Positions 6,225-33,616 of a stretch of 33,616 bases of DNA are shown piece after piece. Made by a program: the position numbers and the translations under genes. The DNA comes from Beijerinckiaceae bacterium. GTDB taxonomy: Bacteria > Pseudomonadota > Alphaproteobacteria > Rhizobiales > Beijerinckiaceae. Each line of letters opens with the position of its first letter. The stretch's first letter is position 1. The stretch spans positions 1 to 33,616 of the forward strand of contig VDMG01000153.1 of the NCBI GenBank assembly GCA_006514895.1. Direction: 5' to 3'. A model generated the notes under the pieces. The model had not been told where the DNA came from and ran no database searches. It worked only from the letters and a program-made list of their open reading frames with translations.

Positions 6225-7241
6225 CTACTCAAATGCGAAGATCCGCTTCCAATCGTTCTTCATGCTGATGATTGTCCAGCCGTCCTTTTTCGCTTCATCG
6301 TAGAGCGCCTGGGTAAAAGTTCCGATCTTTGTGGGTGGAAATCCTTGGGCTGGTCCATAGGCATATTCGCGCACCGCATCGTCGTGCAGCACGAGCAGCG
6401 CAAGCCGGGCGCCGTCTCCAGCTTTGGTATATTCCAGCATCTGCCGGTCGCCAGTCGAATTGCCGAACGCGATGGCCGGGCGGCGGCCGATCATCATATG
6501 AATTCCTTCTGGCTTACCAGCGCCATTGTCGTTCAGCAGAAGCTTGGGCTCCTTGGTCCAAAACGGTTTGCCGCTCTTGTCATAGCTGTATTTCGTCCCG
6601 CCCGCCGTGCCGACGACTTGCTCGGGCGGGATGTCATAGACCCGCCCGGCGTAGACGCGGACAAAATCTTGCCCGCCACCGGTGACGATGTAGGTCTTGT
6701 AGCCGTTTTCGCGCAGGTATCGCATCGCCTCGAGCATCGGCTCATAGGTCAGCTCTGTATAGGGGCGGTCCCATCGCGGATGTTTAGCGGCCGCGATCCA
6801 CTTGGTGACCTCCGTGTTGAATTCCTCCACCGGCATGCCGGTGAGCATCGCCGCGAGAATCTTTAAAAGGTCTTTCGTCGAGAGCTTGGCCATCGCCTCG
6901 CGGTCGCCGGAAAGCACCGTCTTGAACGGCTCGACATTTTTGAGGTCCGGCTTCGCCTTCACCAGCGCCGAACCTTCTCCAAAGACGACCTGCGTGTAGA
7001 TCGGATGCTCGACCCAAGTCGTGCCGTCCTGGTCAAAGGTGGCGATGCGCGCTTCCGGCGGCACGAATTTGCGGCTGGCCCTATCGGTCGTCGTCTTGAC
7101 CAGCTCGATGATCGCCTGCTTGGCCGGGCCATCGTTCCAAGACGGCAGCGGATCCGTCTGTGCCTGCGCGCGGAGGCAAAGAAAGAGCAGGACGAAGAAC
7201 GCAAATGTCGCGCGGCCCCGGAAGGTGTCGAATAATTTCAT
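6225..7241 (-). CDS. exported HAD-family hydrolase/phosphatase
   Basis: 338 aa; N-terminal signal-like segment; HAD motifs ATFDQDGTTW, IVTGGGQDF, AFGNSTGDRQM. Confidence 0.8.
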   Translation of the reverse strand: MKLFDTFRGRATFAFFVLLFLCLRAQAQTDPLPSWNDGPAKQAIIELVKTTTDRASRKFVPPEARIATFDQDGTTWVEHPIYTQVVFGEGSALVKAKPDLKNVEPFKTVLSGDREAMAKLSTKDLLKILAAMLTGMPVEEFNTEVTKWIAAAKHPRWDRPYTELTYEPMLEAMRYLRENGYKTYIVTGGGQDFVRVYAGRVYDIPPEQVVGTAGGTKYSYDKSGKPFWTKEPKLLLNDNGAGKPEGIHMMIGRRPAIAFGNSTGDRQMLEYTKAGDGARLALLVLHDDAVREYAYGPAQGFPPTKIGTFTQALYDEAKKDGWTIISMKNDWKRIFAFE

Positions 7242-7403
7242 CAGAGCCTCCTGCCCAAAGCCACTTAGAGAAGCTGGACTTCTTGAGGAAGCGACGCATG
7301 CGACAAGCCCCCTCGGAACGTATGCGAATAGGGGGAAAACGGCGGGAAGGGAAGCGATTTTCCGGCGGGAATCGCTCGGGGTCGTTTCGCGAGGGAATCG
7401 AAA

Positions 7404-7430
7404 GACGGGCGCCCTTACAGAGCGCCCGTC
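7404..7430 (-). terminator. stem-loop downstream of the arylsulfatase locus
   Basis: Perfect 9-bp arms GACGGGCGC/GCGCCCGTC with a 9-nt loop, 12 bp past the minus-strand stop; followed on the minus strand by TTTC. Confidence 0.55.
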
Positions 7431-7442
7431 GCGTTGGCGTAC

Positions 7443-9198
7443 CTATTGCCCCTCGTGGGCCTTGATGGCTTCCTCGACCTGTTCCTTGACCGCTTGGATG
7501 TTGAAGCTCGCTGGCGCTTGCATCGGAGGAAAATCAATGGCCGTCTTTGCGAGTTCACCCACGTATTTCTGCACGAGGACGAAGCGCCAGAACTCGCGCG
7601 CCATGAAGTCGTTCATATAGCCGCCGCCGAGATTGTTCAGGTTTTCGCTGCGGATGGACGGGGTCCGCTCGAAGGGGTCCTGACGGAGATTGATGATCGG
7701 CGGCATGTCGGTCCGACCTTCTCCCCCGGCCAGCCTTGAGGCTGCTGGAAGAGCTGGAATTTGAAGTCATCGAGGCGCAAAGCGCCGAGATGCGGGCCGC
7801 CGAAGTAAAAGATCTCGTGGCGCGCTGATGGCCATTTGCCCAAAAGGACATCCAATTGATTGTAGCCGTCGAGATGGTTCTTGTATGTCCTGCCCTCGAA
7901 CTCCACGCCGTTCAAAAGCTTGTCTTTGACGTCGAGATCGCCGGCGGCGGCGGCAAGCGTCGGCAACCAATCGAGGCCGGAGAAGATTCCGTTTTCGACA
8001 GACCTTGGCTTGACCTTGCCCGGCCAGCGAATAATGCACGGGACGCGGAAGCCGCCTTCATAGACCGTGCCTTTGGTGGCCCTGAACGGAGTCATGCCGC
8101 CGTCCGGCCAGGTGAACACCTCCGCCCCATTGTCGGTGGTGAAAATGACGATCGTATTGTCGGCCTCGCCGATGTCCTCCAAATGTTTCAGGAGCGCGCC
8201 GACGCTGTCGTCCATTTGCGCCATGCCGGCCTCTTCGAGACTGTAATTGTCCTTCGCATTCATTTCCGCCTGATATTTCGGCGGGAGTTAGGTGAAGACA
8301 TGCATCCGCGTCGTATTGTGCCAGATGAAGAAAGGCTTGCCGGCCTTTTTCGCCTTGTCCATGAAGGCGCTCGAAGATTTGACGAGGACCTCGTCGAAAG
8401 TCTCCATGTCATATTTCGCCTTGCGGCCTTGCTGCCAGCCCTGCATATCCTTCATATTCGGAAAAGGCGCCAGTCCTCCATATTCGGAAAAGGCGCCAGC
8501 GGCCCTTCATCGATGATCTTCTGCTTGCCGACCTTGCCCCAGCGCGGCATTTCGGTCGGGTCATTTACGTCGGACGCGAAAGCATGCACCAGATTACGCG
8601 GCCCGGTCTTATCGAGCCAATCCTGGGGATAATCGTACCAATAGGGGTCCGACATGGCGTCGAGATGGTAGAGGTAGCCGAAGAACTCATCGAAGCCATG
8701 CACGGTCGGCAAGAATTTATTGAGGTCGCCGAGATGGTTCTTGCCGAACTGGCCGGTCGTATAGCCTTGCGACTTCAGCACAGTGGCGAGGGTGACGGCC
8801 TCGTCCGGAATGCCGATATCGGCACCTGCCTGGCCGACGGTGGTGAGACCCGTGCGGATCGGCAGCTCGCCGGTGATGAAATTCGCCCGCCCCGCCGTGC
8901 AGCTCGCCTCGGCGTAATAGTCGGTGAACATCATGCCCTCGTCAGCCAGCTTGTCGAGGTTTGGGGTCTTGCCGGACATGATGCCGCGATGATAGGTGCC
9001 AATGTTGAACCAGCCAACGTCGTCGCCCATGATGACAAGAATATTCGGTTTCTTAGCGGACGCCTGCGCGAGCGCCGCCCCAGAAATTTCCGGCGAGGCC
9101 GCAAAAAGAATCGCGGCGACGACACCACCCAGTACGCTTTGGAAAACTGGGCGTCTCGGCGGATGCGGCAGTAGTGCAGAACCTGCAGGATCGTGCAT
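7443..9198 (-). pseudogene. arylsulfatase (formylglycine-dependent sulfatase), disrupted
   Basis: Fragments 8452..9198, 7637..8263 and 7443..7706 join into one sulfatase. CTAGR active-site motif (YYAEASCTAGRANF) and metal-site sequences MGDDVGW and FTTDNGAE present. Lesions: 26-bp tandem duplication 8448-8499, in-frame TAA at 8288-8290, frameshift near 7705. Confidence 0.85.
8448..8499. repeat. 26-bp tandem duplication (two copies, one mismatch)
   Basis: TCCTTCATATTCGGAAAAGGCGCCAG (8448-8473) directly followed by TCCTCCATATTCGGAAAAGGCGCCAG (8474-8499). Confidence 0.95.
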
Positions 9199-9383
9199 TG
9201 TTGCCTCCCTCAATATGCCGCAGCGCATCAAAATCAACGCCTTGCAACATCCGTAACAAGATGGAGAACATAACACGCGTTTGACAGCTACGCCGATTTT
9301 TTAGGGCGCGGATCAATTTTTTTCTGGAGAATTAGTCGCGAATTTCATTTGGCATGAGCACCGCTGGATTGCGCCAGGTTCGT

Positions 9384-16586: not shown

Positions 16587-18290
16587 CTACTGAATCCCTG
16601 GCAAGACCTGGGTCCCTTCCTGCTGCACGGCGATAAGACGGCTTGGATCGAGACCGAGCAACGCCAAGATCGTGGGCGGCACCTGGGCCGTCTCGACCGG
16701 GCTGTTGACAATTCTGGTTGGCAGCGCAGGATGAGCCACAAGCATTATGACGTTGGTGTCATCGTGAGCGAAGCCGCCATGCTCCGCCAGCTTCTTTTTA
16801 CCGCCGGTATAAATGACTCCAACATTTGGCGCGACGATGATGTCGGGCGTGCGCGAACCTTTAGGCGTCGTCGGATCGCTGAACATCAGGTCCAAGTTGC
16901 GGCCGTAAAAGATTTCGCCGCCGTTGGCGCCGATTGTGGCGGCACTGGCCTCAAGCAATGTCACGTCCTTTAACGTGTCGCTGTGATGTTTGAGCCAAAT
17001 CAACGAGATATCGTCTTCAAGCGCCTGCACCACCGGGCATCCCGGACCAACTCCCGTTGGGCTGAGGATCATTGAAGGGGGCTGGTCCGAGGAATTGTCC
17101 GCCGGAATGCGCAGAACCCGGTTCGGATCGATCGGCGATTTGACCATGTTTCGCGGTAATGATGATCGCGGTTGTCTGGTAAAGCCCCCGTTTCTTTCAG
17201 TTCGGCGACAAATTTGCAAATCGCGTTATCAAAGAATATAATTTCATTGAGCAACGGAGGGGTCGGCGTGCCAACACCGTCCTCATAGCCGCCCGTCTGG
17301 TTGGTGCTATTCTCGATCAGCTTCTCACCGACGCTCACCGCGTGGAAGTTCATGCCGAACACATTCGGTACGGGCTTTGCTGCGGTGCCCTCGTGATTCA
17401 GCCCATCGATCTCGCTGAGGATGGCCTGCACCTTGAGGCTGTACTGGATATTGGCGAAGCGGTCGGTCCAGGCATTGGTCGAGGACACCGCCTTCTGGTC
17501 CGGAAGGGGATCGCAGCCATTGACCTACGTCAAGGAGACCGGAATCGAGTTGATCTCCGAGGCGTAGAAATCGTCACCACCCTTGCCGCTGCGGCCGTCG
17601 ACAAGTTCATAGGATTGATGCTTGTCCGACCAAGCGGTGTACCCGCCAGCCGCCTTCACCACTTCGAACAGCGTGTTCACCCGGATGAATTGATGCGGGT
17701 AAACTGGCGCGCAACAGTTTTTTGGGGTCACGCGGAAGGTAATCCGGATTGATGCCTCCACCGGCGTCGAGCTTGGTCAACTCGATATCGATCTCCTCGT
17801 CGAATCCGACTTGCGTTCCGATGACACTTGGGCACAATCCGGGGCCGCCAACAATCCCGTAAGGCGTCGTCTTCGCGGGCGGCGATAAGGAGCGATCGTA
17901 GCTTACATCGTAGAACGCACCCGTCGAGCGCGGTGAGCCGCCGGTCACCAGGGCTGTCAGACCAGGGAACGAATCGGACGGACGCGTCGAGGTCTGAGTG
18001 AAGGTTGTACCATGCTGACTGAGCCCGGCGAGATTCGGGCAATAGGGTTTGCCCTCATTGAGGCCGGCGATACCGTTGGCGCAGTTCGCAAAATCAAGTG
18101 CGTGCATGCCGTCGATGCTGATCAGCAAGACGCGTTCAACAAGACCATTGTTCGGGCTGTCTGCTCTTGCAGCGGCAGGATGGGCTGCCGCGAATCCCAG
18201 CGCCAGAGCGCCAAGTGAAACGCATGAGAGCCGTTTTCGTGAAACCCGCAATTTCCTCGCCATCGGCTTTTCTCCCTCGCTTGCTTTCAT
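16587..18290 (-). pseudogene. alkaline-phosphatase superfamily / type I phosphodiesterase-nucleotide pyrophosphatase-like, exported, disrupted
   Basis: Fragments 17607..18290, 17525..17761, 17069..17488 and 16587..17219 are consecutive pieces of one protein (VLLISIDGMHALDF... to ...VPPTILALLGLDPSRLIAVQQEGTQVLPGIQ). Interrupted by three frameshifts and a TAG at 17525-17527. Confidence 0.82.
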
Positions 18291-18462
18291 AGGTCTTCCT
18301 CCTCGCCACAGATCTTGGCTGCGCGCGGATGCGGGCCATATACCCGATGGCATGTGACGCTGTTGCGACGGTCAAGGTGGGAGGATTGGCCGTTTTTCGA
18401 GCCGGGCTTGGCTTGGATTTCGCGGGAAGAAAGATTCGATATGCGAACGACGCGACAAGATC

Positions 18463-20010
18463 CTAGAGGGACCTTGTGGAGTCCGGTGCCGTTCTCGTTT
18501 GGCACTTCGCGCGTGCGTCAACATAAGCCGTCACGTTCGTGATTTGCTCGCTGGACATATGCAAGAGGAGCTTCGACCTCCGCCACAAAATATCCTTTGC
18601 GGTAAACGCGAATTCTTGGTCGATCAGATAATCGATCTCGGCTTGGAAGAGCCCGGCGCCAAAACCGGCGCCGAGATCTCCGGCGCTTCGGGCCTTGCCG
18701 AGAATCACTTCCGTCCGGGTTCCATAGCCGCGCGCGAGGCGGGTCGCGGTCGCGGCGTCGAGCCAAGGATATTTGGTTTTAAGCGCGCTCAAAAACCGGT
18801 CGAAATCGCCACCCTGCATTTCGCCGCCGGGCAGCGGCGCCGCCGCAGTCCAGGGCTTTCCGCGCGGCGGCTGTAGAAGCGGCGCGAGCTTCTCGATCAC
18901 ATCTTCCGCCAAGCGGCGATAGGTGGTGATCTTGCCGCCGAAAACCGAGAGAAGCGGGGCCTGCCCCGGCGGCGCGTCGAGATCGAGAACGTAATCGCGC
19001 GTCGCGGCGGAGGCATTTTTCGCTCCGTCGTCATAGAGCGGCCGCACACCGGAAAAACTCTCGACCACATCGCCCGGGCAAAGGGACTTGCGGAAATAAC
19101 GCGACACAGCGGCGCAAAGATAAGAGATTTCTTCAGCGTTTATGTGAGCCGTCAAAGGATCTCCCGCAAAAGATATCTCGGTCGTGCCAATGAGCGAAAA
19201 ATCTGTTTCATAAGGCATCACGAAGATAATGCGGCGGTCTTCGTTTTGCAGGACATAGCTTTGCTCTCCCTCATAAAGGCGGGGGACGATGATGTGGCTT
19301 CCCCTGACGAGACGGAGTTTTTTGCCCGTATCGCGGCCGCTTACGCTTCCTAGCACCTCGGCCACCCAAGGTCCCGCCGCATTGACGAGCGAGCGCGCCG
19401 TCACCGTCATTGAAGTTGCGTGACGCAAGTCGAGGAGCGTTGCTTGCCAGAGATCTGCTTGCCGCCGCGCGGAAACGCAGCGCGTTCTGGTGCGGATTGA
19501 GGCGCCATGTTCGCGGGCATCGACGGCGTTCAGCACCACAAGCCTCGTATCATCCACGCGGCAATCCGAATAAGCAAAGCCCGTCGTAAATTGCTCCTTG
19601 AGCGGTGCACCCTCCTTGGCCGTCCGCAAATCGATGCGGCGGGAGCGGTCCAAGCTCTTGCGTGGAGCGAGCCAATCGTAAAGGAAGAGGCCAGCCTCGA
19701 TCACGAAAGCGGGGCGCAATCCCTTGTCGTGCGGCAGGATGAAACGCGCCGGCCAGACGAGGTGCGGCGCGATGCCAAGCAGGGCTTCCCGCTCTCTCAG
19801 GGCCTCCCGAACGAAGCAAAACTTGTAATATTCAAGATAACGCAGGCCGCCATGAATGAGCTTGCTCGACGCCGCCGACGTCGCGCTGGCAAGATCGCCC
19901 TGCTCGCAGAGCATCGCCTTCAGGCCGCGTCCGGCTGCATCGCGCGCGATCCCGGCTCCATTGACGCCGCCGCCGATGACGAGGAGATCGACGTTTGCTT
20001 CCGTTTTCAT
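18463..20010 (-). CDS. glpD: aerobic glycerol-3-phosphate dehydrogenase
   Basis: Start MKTEANVDLLVIGGGVNGAGIARDAAGRG at 20010; FAD-binding GGGVNGAG, SSKLIHGGLRYLEYYKF, DILWRRSKLLLHM. Confidence 0.95.
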   Translation of the reverse strand: MKTEANVDLLVIGGGVNGAGIARDAAGRGLKAMLCEQGDLASATSAASSKLIHGGLRYLEYYKFCFVREALREREALLGIAPHLVWPARFILPHDKGLRPAFVIEAGLFLYDWLAPRKSLDRSRRIDLRTAKEGAPLKEQFTTGFAYSDCRVDDTRLVVLNAVDAREHGASIRTRTRCVSARRQADLWQATLLDLRHATSMTVTARSLVNAAGPWVAEVLGSVSGRDTGKKLRLVRGSHIIVPRLYEGEQSYVLQNEDRRIIFVMPYETDFSLIGTTEISFAGDPLTAHINAEEISYLCAAVSRYFRKSLCPGDVVESFSGVRPLYDDGAKNASAATRDYVLDLDAPPGQAPLLSVFGGKITTYRRLAEDVIEKLAPLLQPPRGKPWTAAAPLPGGEMQGGDFDRFLSALKTKYPWLDAATATRLARGYGTRTEVILGKARSAGDLGAGFGAGLFQAEIDYLIDQEFAFTAKDILWRRSKLLLHMSSEQITNVTAYVDARAKCQTRTAPDSTRSL

Positions 20011-20152
20011 CAGAAGGCCAAGGGCATGCAGATGCGGCCTTGTCAACCGCCGACTCGCGAATTTATTGGCCAAAAATACCAAATTTTCGCACGATCGCAC
20101 GCCTCTCAAGGGCGAAAGACGTTTGAGGGCTTGCGTACTCAGACGCTAAAAT

Positions 20153-20188
20153 CGGACAAAAATGTTTCACGTGAAACATTTTTGTCCG
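20153..20188. promoter_or_regulatory. parS: parS-like centromere site (ParB/Spo0J binding) inside a 36-bp perfect palindrome
   Basis: CGGACAAAAATGTTTCAC|GTGAAACATTTTTGTCCG; core TGTTTCACGTGAAACA at 20163-20178 equals the bacterial parS consensus. Confidence 0.85.
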
Positions 20189-20247
20189 GTTGGCGCGAAA
20201 AACCTTACATCGCCCGGCAAGACTCGCCCATCCCCATACCATCCATC

Positions 20248-21474
20248 TCAAAACCCAAGCCGAAGGATCCGGCATAAATCGCCCGCCGCCGCGTCCGGTG
20301 CGTGAGGCTCGCGGATCACGAGGCATTGTGCTTGCGCGAGAATCCGTAGAAGCGAAGAGTCCTGTATATCGAAAGGCGTAGCGACAGGGAGGCCCATTTC
20401 TGTGGGCCGCAACGTTGCGCGCAAAAAATCTTGACGGCTGTCGTTGGCGGGCAGCGCCTTGCCGAGGATCGCCGGCTCGCTTCTTTCGCGGCCCGCGTCC
20501 GGGTCGCCGGAAAGCGCGCGCACCAGGGGTACAAGAAAAACTATTCCGGCGACGATCGCGGCAACCGGATTTCCGGGCAACCCAAGAATAGCCATTGGCC
20601 CAAGCTTTCCATGGAGCACCGGCTTTCCGGGCCGCATCGCGATCTTCCAAAAGTTCAGTTCCATGCCTTGCTTGGCGAGAGCGGGTTTGACGAGATCGTA
20701 ATCGCCAACCGAAGCGCCACCGAGCGTCACCAACAGATCGGCGGCCGAATCACGTGCGGCACGAACCCCTTCTTCAACGGTGCCCAACTCGTCCTTGGCG
20801 ATGCCGAGATCGAGTGGTTCGCCGCCCGCGGCCTCGACGAGCGCGGCGATCGCGAAGGAATTCGTGGCGACGATTTGATCGGCGCCAATGGTTTCGCCAG
20901 GCAACGCCAATTCATCGCCGGTCGCGAGAATTGCCACGCGCGGGCGACGGACGACGGCAACCTCAGCGTGGTTCATCGCGGCGGCGAGCGCGACGTCTGA
21001 GTAATCGAGCCGCGTTCCGGCGGAAAGTAAAACCTCGCCCTCGGCGAAGTCGATACCTTTGGCGCGAATGTTGCGGCCTCTCGCCACAACTTCTAACGGT
21101 TCGACGATTTCGCCCACCACCCGGGCAGTTTCCTGAATCAGAATCGTGTCGCACCCGGCGGGCACCTGCGCGCCGGTGAAAATCCGCACGGTTTCCTTGG
21201 GCCCAATCGACCCCCGAAAACCATGTCCGGCGGTGCTTTCGCCAATCTGCTTCAAACTGACGGGGAGTTGTGTCAGATCTTCGGCGCGCACGGCGTAGCC
21301 ATCCATCGCGGACATCGCCACGGGCGGCTGGGTCCGCTTGGCGGCGAGATCCCTTGCAAGGGTTCGTCCAGACGCGCGTCCGAGGGGGACGGTTTCGGCC
21401 GGCCGGTCTATCGAAACATCCGCCAGAATTCGGGCACGAGCCTCATCCACCGAAAGCAGCACGCCGCTACTCAT
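20248..21474 (-). CDS. moeA: molybdopterin molybdotransferase
   Basis: 408 aa; [58 protein letters not shown] motifs. Confidence 0.95.
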
Positions 21475-31219: not shown

Positions 31220-32074
31220 TCAAACCAGCGGCAGTGGTGCGCGCCGCGCTTTAGGCTTTTTATTCGCCAGCCGAGCCGCCGCAGCAGACATCGCCTTGCT
31301 CTCTAAGATGCTTTCCGGCTCGGCGCCGCCGCTCGCGAGATCGGCAATCCGATGCCGGAGCGATTCGGCCGAGCTTGTGGCAATGTCTGGATTATCTATG
31401 TCGAATTTTTTGGCGAGACCCTGAGTCTGTTTTTCGTCCAGGCCGCCGAGAACAAGCGTGAAGCTTGGCGCTTTCCAGAAGATATTGACGAAGCCTTTAA
31501 TCCAAAGACTGAAACAAAATCAGGGATCGTGGGAACGATGATGAGATCGCTCGCCCGGACGGGCCGTTTCGCTCAGCGGCGAAATTCCCGGCGGACAGTC
31601 AAAGATCACATAATCATAGGTCTTACCGAGCGGCAGGAATTCCTGCTCGAACAGTTTCCACGTCTGGCCTTCGATGGCCTTCATGTTGAAATGCTGATCA
31701 GTGAGATGATAGATAATCTCGCGCTCAACCACTCGCAGGTGTGGCCCGCACGGCAGAAGCGAAATCTTGAGTTGGTTTCCGGCATGCGTCGTGCCACCCA
31801 CGGCGTTGCGAATCTTCGGAGCGAGTTTAGTCGTTTCATGGTTCAGCAGGCGATCTTCCAGGAACGCCTCGACAGTGCGGTCGTCGGTGATCATCTCCGC
31901 TAGGAGATTTTCCCCCGCGAGGCACACCGACGCGCTCGCTTGTGGATCGAGATCGACGACGAGAATGGAAGCGCTTGGATCGTCGGCCGCCAACGCCTCG
32001 GCGAGGCTGACAACTGTCGTCGTCTTGCCGACGCCTCCCTTCATGTTGGCGATCGCGATTAGCTTGCCGGCCAT
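31220..32074 (-). pseudogene. ParA-family ATPase (deviant Walker A), frameshifted
   Basis: MAGKLIAIANMKGGVGKTTTVVSLAEAL and YDYVIFDCPPGISPLSETA; beyond 31560 the protein continues in other frames (VRASDLIIVPTIPDFVSVFGLKA, then FVNIFWKAPSFTLVLGGLDEKQTQGLAKKFDIDNPDIATSSAESLRHRIADLASGG...APLPLV*). Confidence 0.75.
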
Positions 32075-32553: not shown

Positions 32554-32784
32554 TCAGATCTCTACTGTAATCAGGGTGCCATTGGGAATTTCGACATCCA
32601 CAGGAACCGGTGCTCCCTGGGCTAAGATCTGCTCGAGATTTATAAATAGGACGGAATGGATGTGGGCCAGGGCTTCTTCCCGCGTTTGACCTCCGGTTGA
32701 GGCTTCATAGCTTTCGAAGGCGGGGCAGTAGGCGCGCCATTGATGGGCCTCACGTTCTACAACGACGTGAAACGTATAGGTCAT
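32554..32784 (-). CDS. HicB-like antitoxin-family protein (orphan)
   Basis: 76 aa: MTYTFHVVVEREAHQWRAYCPAFESYEASTGGQTREEALAHIHSVLFINLEQIL matches the HicB-like fold pattern (hydrophobic strand, W/Y-x-A-x-CPA, G-x-T-x-EEAL-x-x-I). Confidence 0.65.
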   Translation of the reverse strand: MTYTFHVVVEREAHQWRAYCPAFESYEASTGGQTREEALAHIHSVLFINLEQILAQGAPVPVDVEIPNGTLITVEI

Positions 32785-33616
32785 GCCACTATCGCTCCGA
32801 GGAGCTTAGGGAGACGGATCAAATTGTAGGCCGCCATGGCGAAGGTGAAGGCCCATCGCACACGTGGCAGGCCCCGAAATCGCGTCTTCCTTTGGCCTGC
32901 GACCGTCTTTGTCCAGCCGAACACCTCTTCAATCCGCTTGCGGATGCGCTGGCTGACGGCATAGCCGGGATGGCGCGTCGTGCGCCCGTCGATGGCCGAG
33001 CGGCGGCCCTTTGTGTTCTGTGCGACATGCGGCACGGCACCGAGTTCCCGCAACTCCATCACAAAGTCCGCTGTGTCGAAGCCCTTGTCGCCGCCAACCG
33101 TGATGCGTCGCGTCGTCCCATCCTCGCCGGTCACGCCCTTGATCATCTCCAGCGCCGCATACCGCTCGGCGTAACCGGTGGCGCGGGTGAGTTCGGCATC
33201 GACCACAAGGCCGCCGCGGTTCTCCATGAGGACGTGGCCGATGAAGCACAGTTTCGCGCCCTGTCCTGGGCTTTTGCGGTAGAGCCGTGCGTCCGGATCG
33301 GTCGTCGAGGCGTGTGTCTCGTTCGAGCGCTTCTCGCCGTGGAAGTCGACTTCGGCGTTGCGTCCCTCTGTAGCTGGGTACTCATCTGGATCACTCTTCG
33401 AATCATCCTGCGGTGGTTCCTTTGCTTTGAAGCTCTTCATCGAGGCCCAGGCCTCGATCAGAGTGCCGTCAATCGAGAAGTGTTCGGTCGACAAGAGCCG
33501 CTTCACCTTGGGCCGCTCCAGCACAGCGCACAAAAAGCCTGCGGCGACATCGCCATCGAGGAGTCGGTCGCGGTTTTTGGAGAAGGTCGAGTGATCCCAA
33601 ACACCATCGTCGATGC
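32781..33616 (-). mobile_element. IS5-type (DDE) transposase, partial at window edge
   Basis: Open to the window edge (IDDGVWDHSTFSKNRDRLLDGDVAAGFLCAVLERPKVKRLLSTEHFSIDGTLIEAWASMKSFKAK... GDKGFDT ... RIRKRIEEVFGWTKTVAGQRKTRFRG). Confidence 0.9.

Follow-up and report, generated by a model that had tools for sequence, protein, structure and literature searches.

A perfect palindrome around parS and a dispersed parS repeat family in a Methylocapsa clade

We analysed a 33,616-nucleotide stretch of DNA from a draft Beijerinckiaceae genome (G000; 3.03 Mb, 312 contigs), hereafter the window, for a palindrome carrying the centromere-like site parS. Positions 20153-20188 read CGGACAAAAATGTTTCACGTGAAACATTTTTGTCCG, a perfect 36-bp inverted repeat, and its central 16 bp, 20163-20178, is the consensus parS TGTTTCACGTGAAACA. 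The palindrome lies between moeA and a glpD-like gene, as the first-pass annotation had described. Both genes are on the minus strand; in their reading direction, the palindrome follows the moeA stop codon by 59 bp and precedes the likely glpD ATG, at 20010, by about 140 bp. No other match to TGTTTCACGTGAAACA was found in the window even when 3 mismatches were allowed (chance expectation 0.07). The parts of the site, named by comparison with the repeat family described below, and its two neighbours are as follows.

20164..20177, no strand: 14-bp parS core GTTTCACGTGAAAC, the invariant part of the family (sequence and core-blind conservation statistics)
20163..20178, no strand: 16-bp consensus parS TGTTTCACGTGAAACA (sequence)
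20153..20162, plus strand: left symmetric arm CGGACAAAAA (sequence; family variants CGTACCAAAA and CTTACCAAAA)
20179..20188, plus strand: right symmetric arm TTTTTGTCCG (sequence)
20066..20152, minus strand: left outer half-module of A type, degenerate near the core, reading outward ...AGTACGCAAG...GTGCGATCGTGCGAAAATTTGGTATTTTTGGCCAA (half-element listing and A-module consensus)
20189..20212, plus strand: right outer half-module of A type, short, GTTGGCGCGAAAAACCTTACATCG (sequence and A-module comparison)
20248..21474, minus strand: moeA, molybdopterin molybdenumtransferase (Pfam MoeA_N/MoCF/MoeA_C)
18463..20010, minus strand: glpD-like FAD-dependent glycerol-3-phosphate dehydrogenase gene, the downstream neighbour (Pfam DAO/DAO_C)

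The window site is not alone in its genome. The genome-wide search for the 16-mer proposed in the first-pass annotation returned 18 exact and 31 one-mismatch copies in G000, and the reversed control gave 0 one-mismatch matches. The 36-bp form also recurs, with 28 copies in the same genome recovered through the arms alone. The exact 14-bp core GTTTCACGTGAAAC occurs 42 times in G000 and 61 times in G001, a complete chromosome of the same genus (4,151,390 bp, ~58% GC), while the maximum among 398 other sampled Pseudomonadota was 9 and the usual count 0-5. In a comparison set of 15 genomes of the methane-oxidising genus Methylocapsa, G000 included, the genomes fall into two classes: G000, G001, G004, G006, G010, and G012 hold 15-67 parS copies, and the nine others hold 1-5. 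The core-plus-arm pattern is present in exactly 6 of the 15, the same six as the high-copy class. Among the matches listed for named assemblies, the pattern lies nearly always in Methylocapsa and related Hyphomicrobiales metagenome-assembled genomes (PLUZ01 bog_942, JAFMSB01 bin_47, and QHBR01 Antarctic bin15), and the few remaining named records have a single match each. Ten non-carrier genomes searched for the family arms gave none, apart from one unrelated chance match. A search for phage or plasmid relatives of the element returned only short A/T-rich stretches that match the palindrome, and we rejected a mobile phage or plasmid origin on that ground. A clade-specific, chromosome-wide parS repeat family is nearly certain to exist. 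The window site can no longer be viewed as a lone parS, since each genome holds about 40-60 dispersed copies, of which it is one; the suggestion of an outlying ParB loading site, on the other hand, is the option that the comparison favors.

In G001, parB is located at 2,220,048-2,220,947, and the GC skew switches sign near parAB (~2.2-2.5 Mb) and near 0.1 Mb. Only two copies of parS, the native sites at 2,224,457 and 2,224,740, are at parAB. The other 58 listed sites are distributed uniformly from origin to terminus (Rayleigh p=0.5), with 7, 13, 16, 10, and 12 sites in successive fifths of the origin-terminus distance. Fifty-one of the 58 are outside the origin domain and reach the terminus, and the terminus-proximal bins show no depletion. 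The ortholog of the window site is at 2,985,010, ~763 kb away from parB (2.22 Mb); judged by this ortholog, the window site lies outside the origin domain, the usual though not absolute location of chromosomal parS. The earlier proposals that the palindrome marks origin proximity, or a secondary replicon or rearrangement, were rejected, since sites occur throughout the genome and the ortholog is so distant from parB; nothing points to a secondary replicon or rearrangement. The copies also have a preferred gene context. Of the intergenic copies, 18 lie in convergent, 19 in tandem, and 2 in divergent gaps, against 6, 24, and 9 expected (p ~2e-7), JAFMSB01 shows the same preference (14 convergent, 6 tandem, 1 divergent), and many copies are 16-60 bp from gene 3' ends.

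The repeated element, which we call the parS cassette, measures ~100-175 bp and consists of the parS core, A/T steps, symmetric arms, and then outer half-modules of two kinds. Counting outward from the invariant 14 bp, the bases at positions 1-2 vary freely and those at positions 3-5 are nearly invariant AAA/TTT, and the symmetry of the element extends to about ±15 bp. The arms vary within the family (CGGACAAAA, CGTACCAAAA, and CTTACCAAAA), and the two halves of a single copy may differ. Module A (~95-150 bp) is built of repeated TTGTNNGATT-like motifs and, apart from rare weak exceptions, was seen only beside intact or degenerate cores. Module D, TTTAGAATNATTCTAAA, adjoins native parS in G000, G001 (twice), and G010, and stands on one side of 41/41 copies examined from JAFMSB01 (probably G012). 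D-like sequence occurred 45 times near a core and 2 times elsewhere in 1.67 Mb of DNA, although the ratio is somewhat inflated, this DNA having been taken from around parS. Module D could be read as a rhizobial iron-control (Irr/ICE) box; that reading was dropped, since every D in the fetched DNA adjoined parS. Since module D is common to native and dispersed parS, the comparison suggests that the dispersed copies and the origin centromere share descent. A TTTAGAN5TCTAAA module, which resembles the Irr box, directly adjoins native origin parS at loci L005, L047, and L200, and the fetched DNA had it at parS alone.

The core is far more constrained than its surroundings. To avoid circular selection, elements were collected by their arms with the core left free. 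In G001, minority bases make up 2/602 of the core positions versus 64/172 in the four adjacent columns (p ~5e-44), and in G000 the corresponding values are 6/392 and 28/112 (p ~1e-14). The arm-ascertained elements show the core constraint expected of chromosomal parS.

Many sites are also held in place between species. About 15-17 G001 sites, the window site among them, adjoin the same gene as a G000 site, and several of these shared sites were confirmed by both flanks. Several copies at orthologous positions, again including that of the window, are found in species whose flanking genes are only ~77-84% identical. The first-pass annotation would have doubted its reading had the palindrome been absent from relatives; in G001 it is kept at the orthologous position with an identical core and differing arms (CGGACAAAAAT versus CGCACCAAAGT). 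One site is common to G001, PLUZ, and G010, with a single core substitution in G010. At one G001 locus the outer half is kept and the core is gone, probably a deletion relic. The three-species site and this relic indicate that these are old sites and that loss occurs at times. The family is likely maintained through selection on the ParB-binding core.

Each carrier checked in full encodes one canonical chromosomal ParB with the motifs GERRWRA and SRSHV(A/T)N, and the carrier genomes have a canonical ParB/ParA locus with two native parS sites. The carrier ParBs form one clade with support 100/100 (three full-length carriers). No strong candidate for a second ParB was found in G001 or G010, G001 giving only weak sub-cut-off matches, and a Noc-like paralogue was likewise looked for and not found in these two genomes. 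With one canonical ParB per carrier, a Noc-like specialist is not required. G000 has a second, plasmid-type ParA/ParB pair on contig C286 at 7220-7753 (L230), suggesting a plasmid or chromid.

We consider the palindrome to be a member of a dispersed parS cassette family kept as chromosome-wide ParB loading sites, a reading to which we give a probability of roughly 0.68 from sequence comparison. The family's probable source is the native centromere at the origin, with copying as the presumed means of spread. The single canonical ParB of the host would then use the dispersed cores as extra CTP-dependent loading sites around the chromosome, and ParB would be spread over the whole nucleoid and not the origin alone, as would its partners (ParA, SMC, and perhaps division regulators of the MipZ type). 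What we infer here, as opposed to observe, is that ParB occupies the sites, that they descend from native parS by some copying mechanism, and that the cell benefits. The dispersed sites may serve SMC loading, nucleoid organisation, or occlusion. As a tentative extension, which we regard as rather doubtful, the USC-alpha-like Methylocapsa clade may be holocentric-like, its canonical ParB loading at ~40-60 cassettes and combining origin segregation and a chromosome-wide job in one protein. This job, which Firmicutes gave to the paralogue Noc, would be control of the division site or, through SMC loading, organisation of the nucleoid.

Several observations weigh against dispersed ParB loading. 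A few G000 copies have decayed cores, and the outer modules show repeat-like multiplication, so that some copies may be neutral. Another protein recognising these 14 bp could account for the core constraint. The loci in which positional conservation was counted had mostly been fetched for their cores, so the apparent rate of loss may be biased. Even spacing was not established in G001 (CV, coefficient of variation, p=0.22, native sites excluded). In addition, an extra parS cluster off the origin lowers fitness in Caulobacter (PMC5815017), so a dispersed layout would need compensating changes. As for spacing, a regularity that was significant with a 43-site list was lost with the fuller list minus the native sites and is not claimed; the sole spacing anomaly in G001 is a lack of site pairs <20 kb apart (p=0.003).

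The repeat-like features raise an alternative in which the family is a selfish intergenic repeat, similar to repetitive extragenic palindromic (REP) sequences or miniature inverted-repeat transposable elements (MITEs), that captured a parS core and keeps it for its spreading machinery or through gene conversion, with no role for ParB. The outer modules are indeed common to copies well past the core, the copies are intergenic and avoid divergent promoters as REPs do, and copy number varies among species. However, homogenisation would even out the bases beside the core as well, and these vary freely around a fixed core, which argues against simple homogenisation. The core is also kept in old orthologous copies of diverged species, module D links the family to the native centromere, and no phage or plasmid relative was found. 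In a check for target-site duplications or clean empty sites of the REP/MITE type, the one clear core-less ortholog retains the outer half and looks like a deletion. We regard a selfish repeat as an unlikely explanation.

The placement near gene 3' ends could instead reflect bidirectional transcription terminators or RNA hairpins, given the enrichment of convergent gaps and the many copies 16-60 bp from 3' ends. As RNA, the 161-nt stretch holding the window copy gives a strong hairpin (-59.7 kcal/mol, z=-3.2). Its stem is, however, A/U-rich and lacks the separate U tract after a G+C-rich stem by which intrinsic terminators are recognised. In G001 the bases that adjoin the core mostly do not pair (complementarity 18% and 38%), the core sequence itself is kept without compensatory pair changes, and the element has no Rfam match, which together make terminators very improbable. 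Least probable of the three is that the elements are operators of another DNA-binding protein, a regulator or nucleoid protein, which shares the parS core by coincidence. The conserved modules A, with its TTGTNNGATT repeats, and D suggest a second binding protein, but the sites lie downstream of genes and avoid divergent promoters, and the 14 constrained bases coincide exactly with the chromosomal parS core, in genomes whose ParB is canonical. Chromosome-wide ParB loading seems the best mechanism, though an unproven one.

Three other features of the window were noted. Near the contig end are a ParA-like ATPase open reading frame (ORF) that at 184 aa is short for its family (Pfam AAA_31/CbiA) and a DDE transposase (31520-32074 (-) and 32781-33533 (-)), which look like the remnant of a mobile partition locus unlinked to the palindrome. 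A sulfatase at 7637-9276 (-) is in two ORFs that match the opening and closing portions of Pfam Sulfatase, the split being a frameshift, a pseudogene, or an assembly error. A type I phosphodiesterase-like gene at 16587-18353 (-) appears broken into three overlapping ORFs, with a Pfam match in the first piece only.

Nearly all other bacteria have few parS sites, which adjoin the replication origin, and this is among the firmest rules of bacterial chromosome biology. A clade with dozens of conserved parS sites from origin to terminus is a natural test of why parS position matters. The family also bears on how SMC and division control cope and on how a centromere can spread. Our literature search found no paper joining parS with Methylocapsa and no published description of such a family, and a survey of REPs mentions neither parS nor Methylocapsa (PMC12306157).

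In bacteria, parS sites are mostly in the origin domain (PMC7022226), and up to ~22 copies near the origin are cited in published work. The Methylocapsa sites share with chromosomal ParABS parS the identical 14-16 bp core and a canonical ParB/ParA locus in the same genomes, but they reach the terminus and sit inside a larger repeated element. The Noc binding sites (NBS) of Bacillus are similar in that a ParB-family CTPase has numerous 16-bp sites spread over the chromosome (PMC8429893, PMC4331003). Their sequence is unlike parS, however, and is read by the paralogue Noc, whereas the Methylocapsa core is parS; G001 shows the dispersal of NBS with neither their terminus depletion nor a dedicated paralogue. 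REPs and intergenic mosaic palindromes are likewise short intergenic palindromic repeats with shared modules and 3'-end enrichment, but the Methylocapsa element is centred on an invariant parS. In Pseudomonas aeruginosa, ParB also binds at numerous dispersed places through half-parS sites (PMC10419367, PMC7022226). These half-sites are 7 bp and common by chance, whereas the Methylocapsa sites are full palindromic parS, present far above chance.
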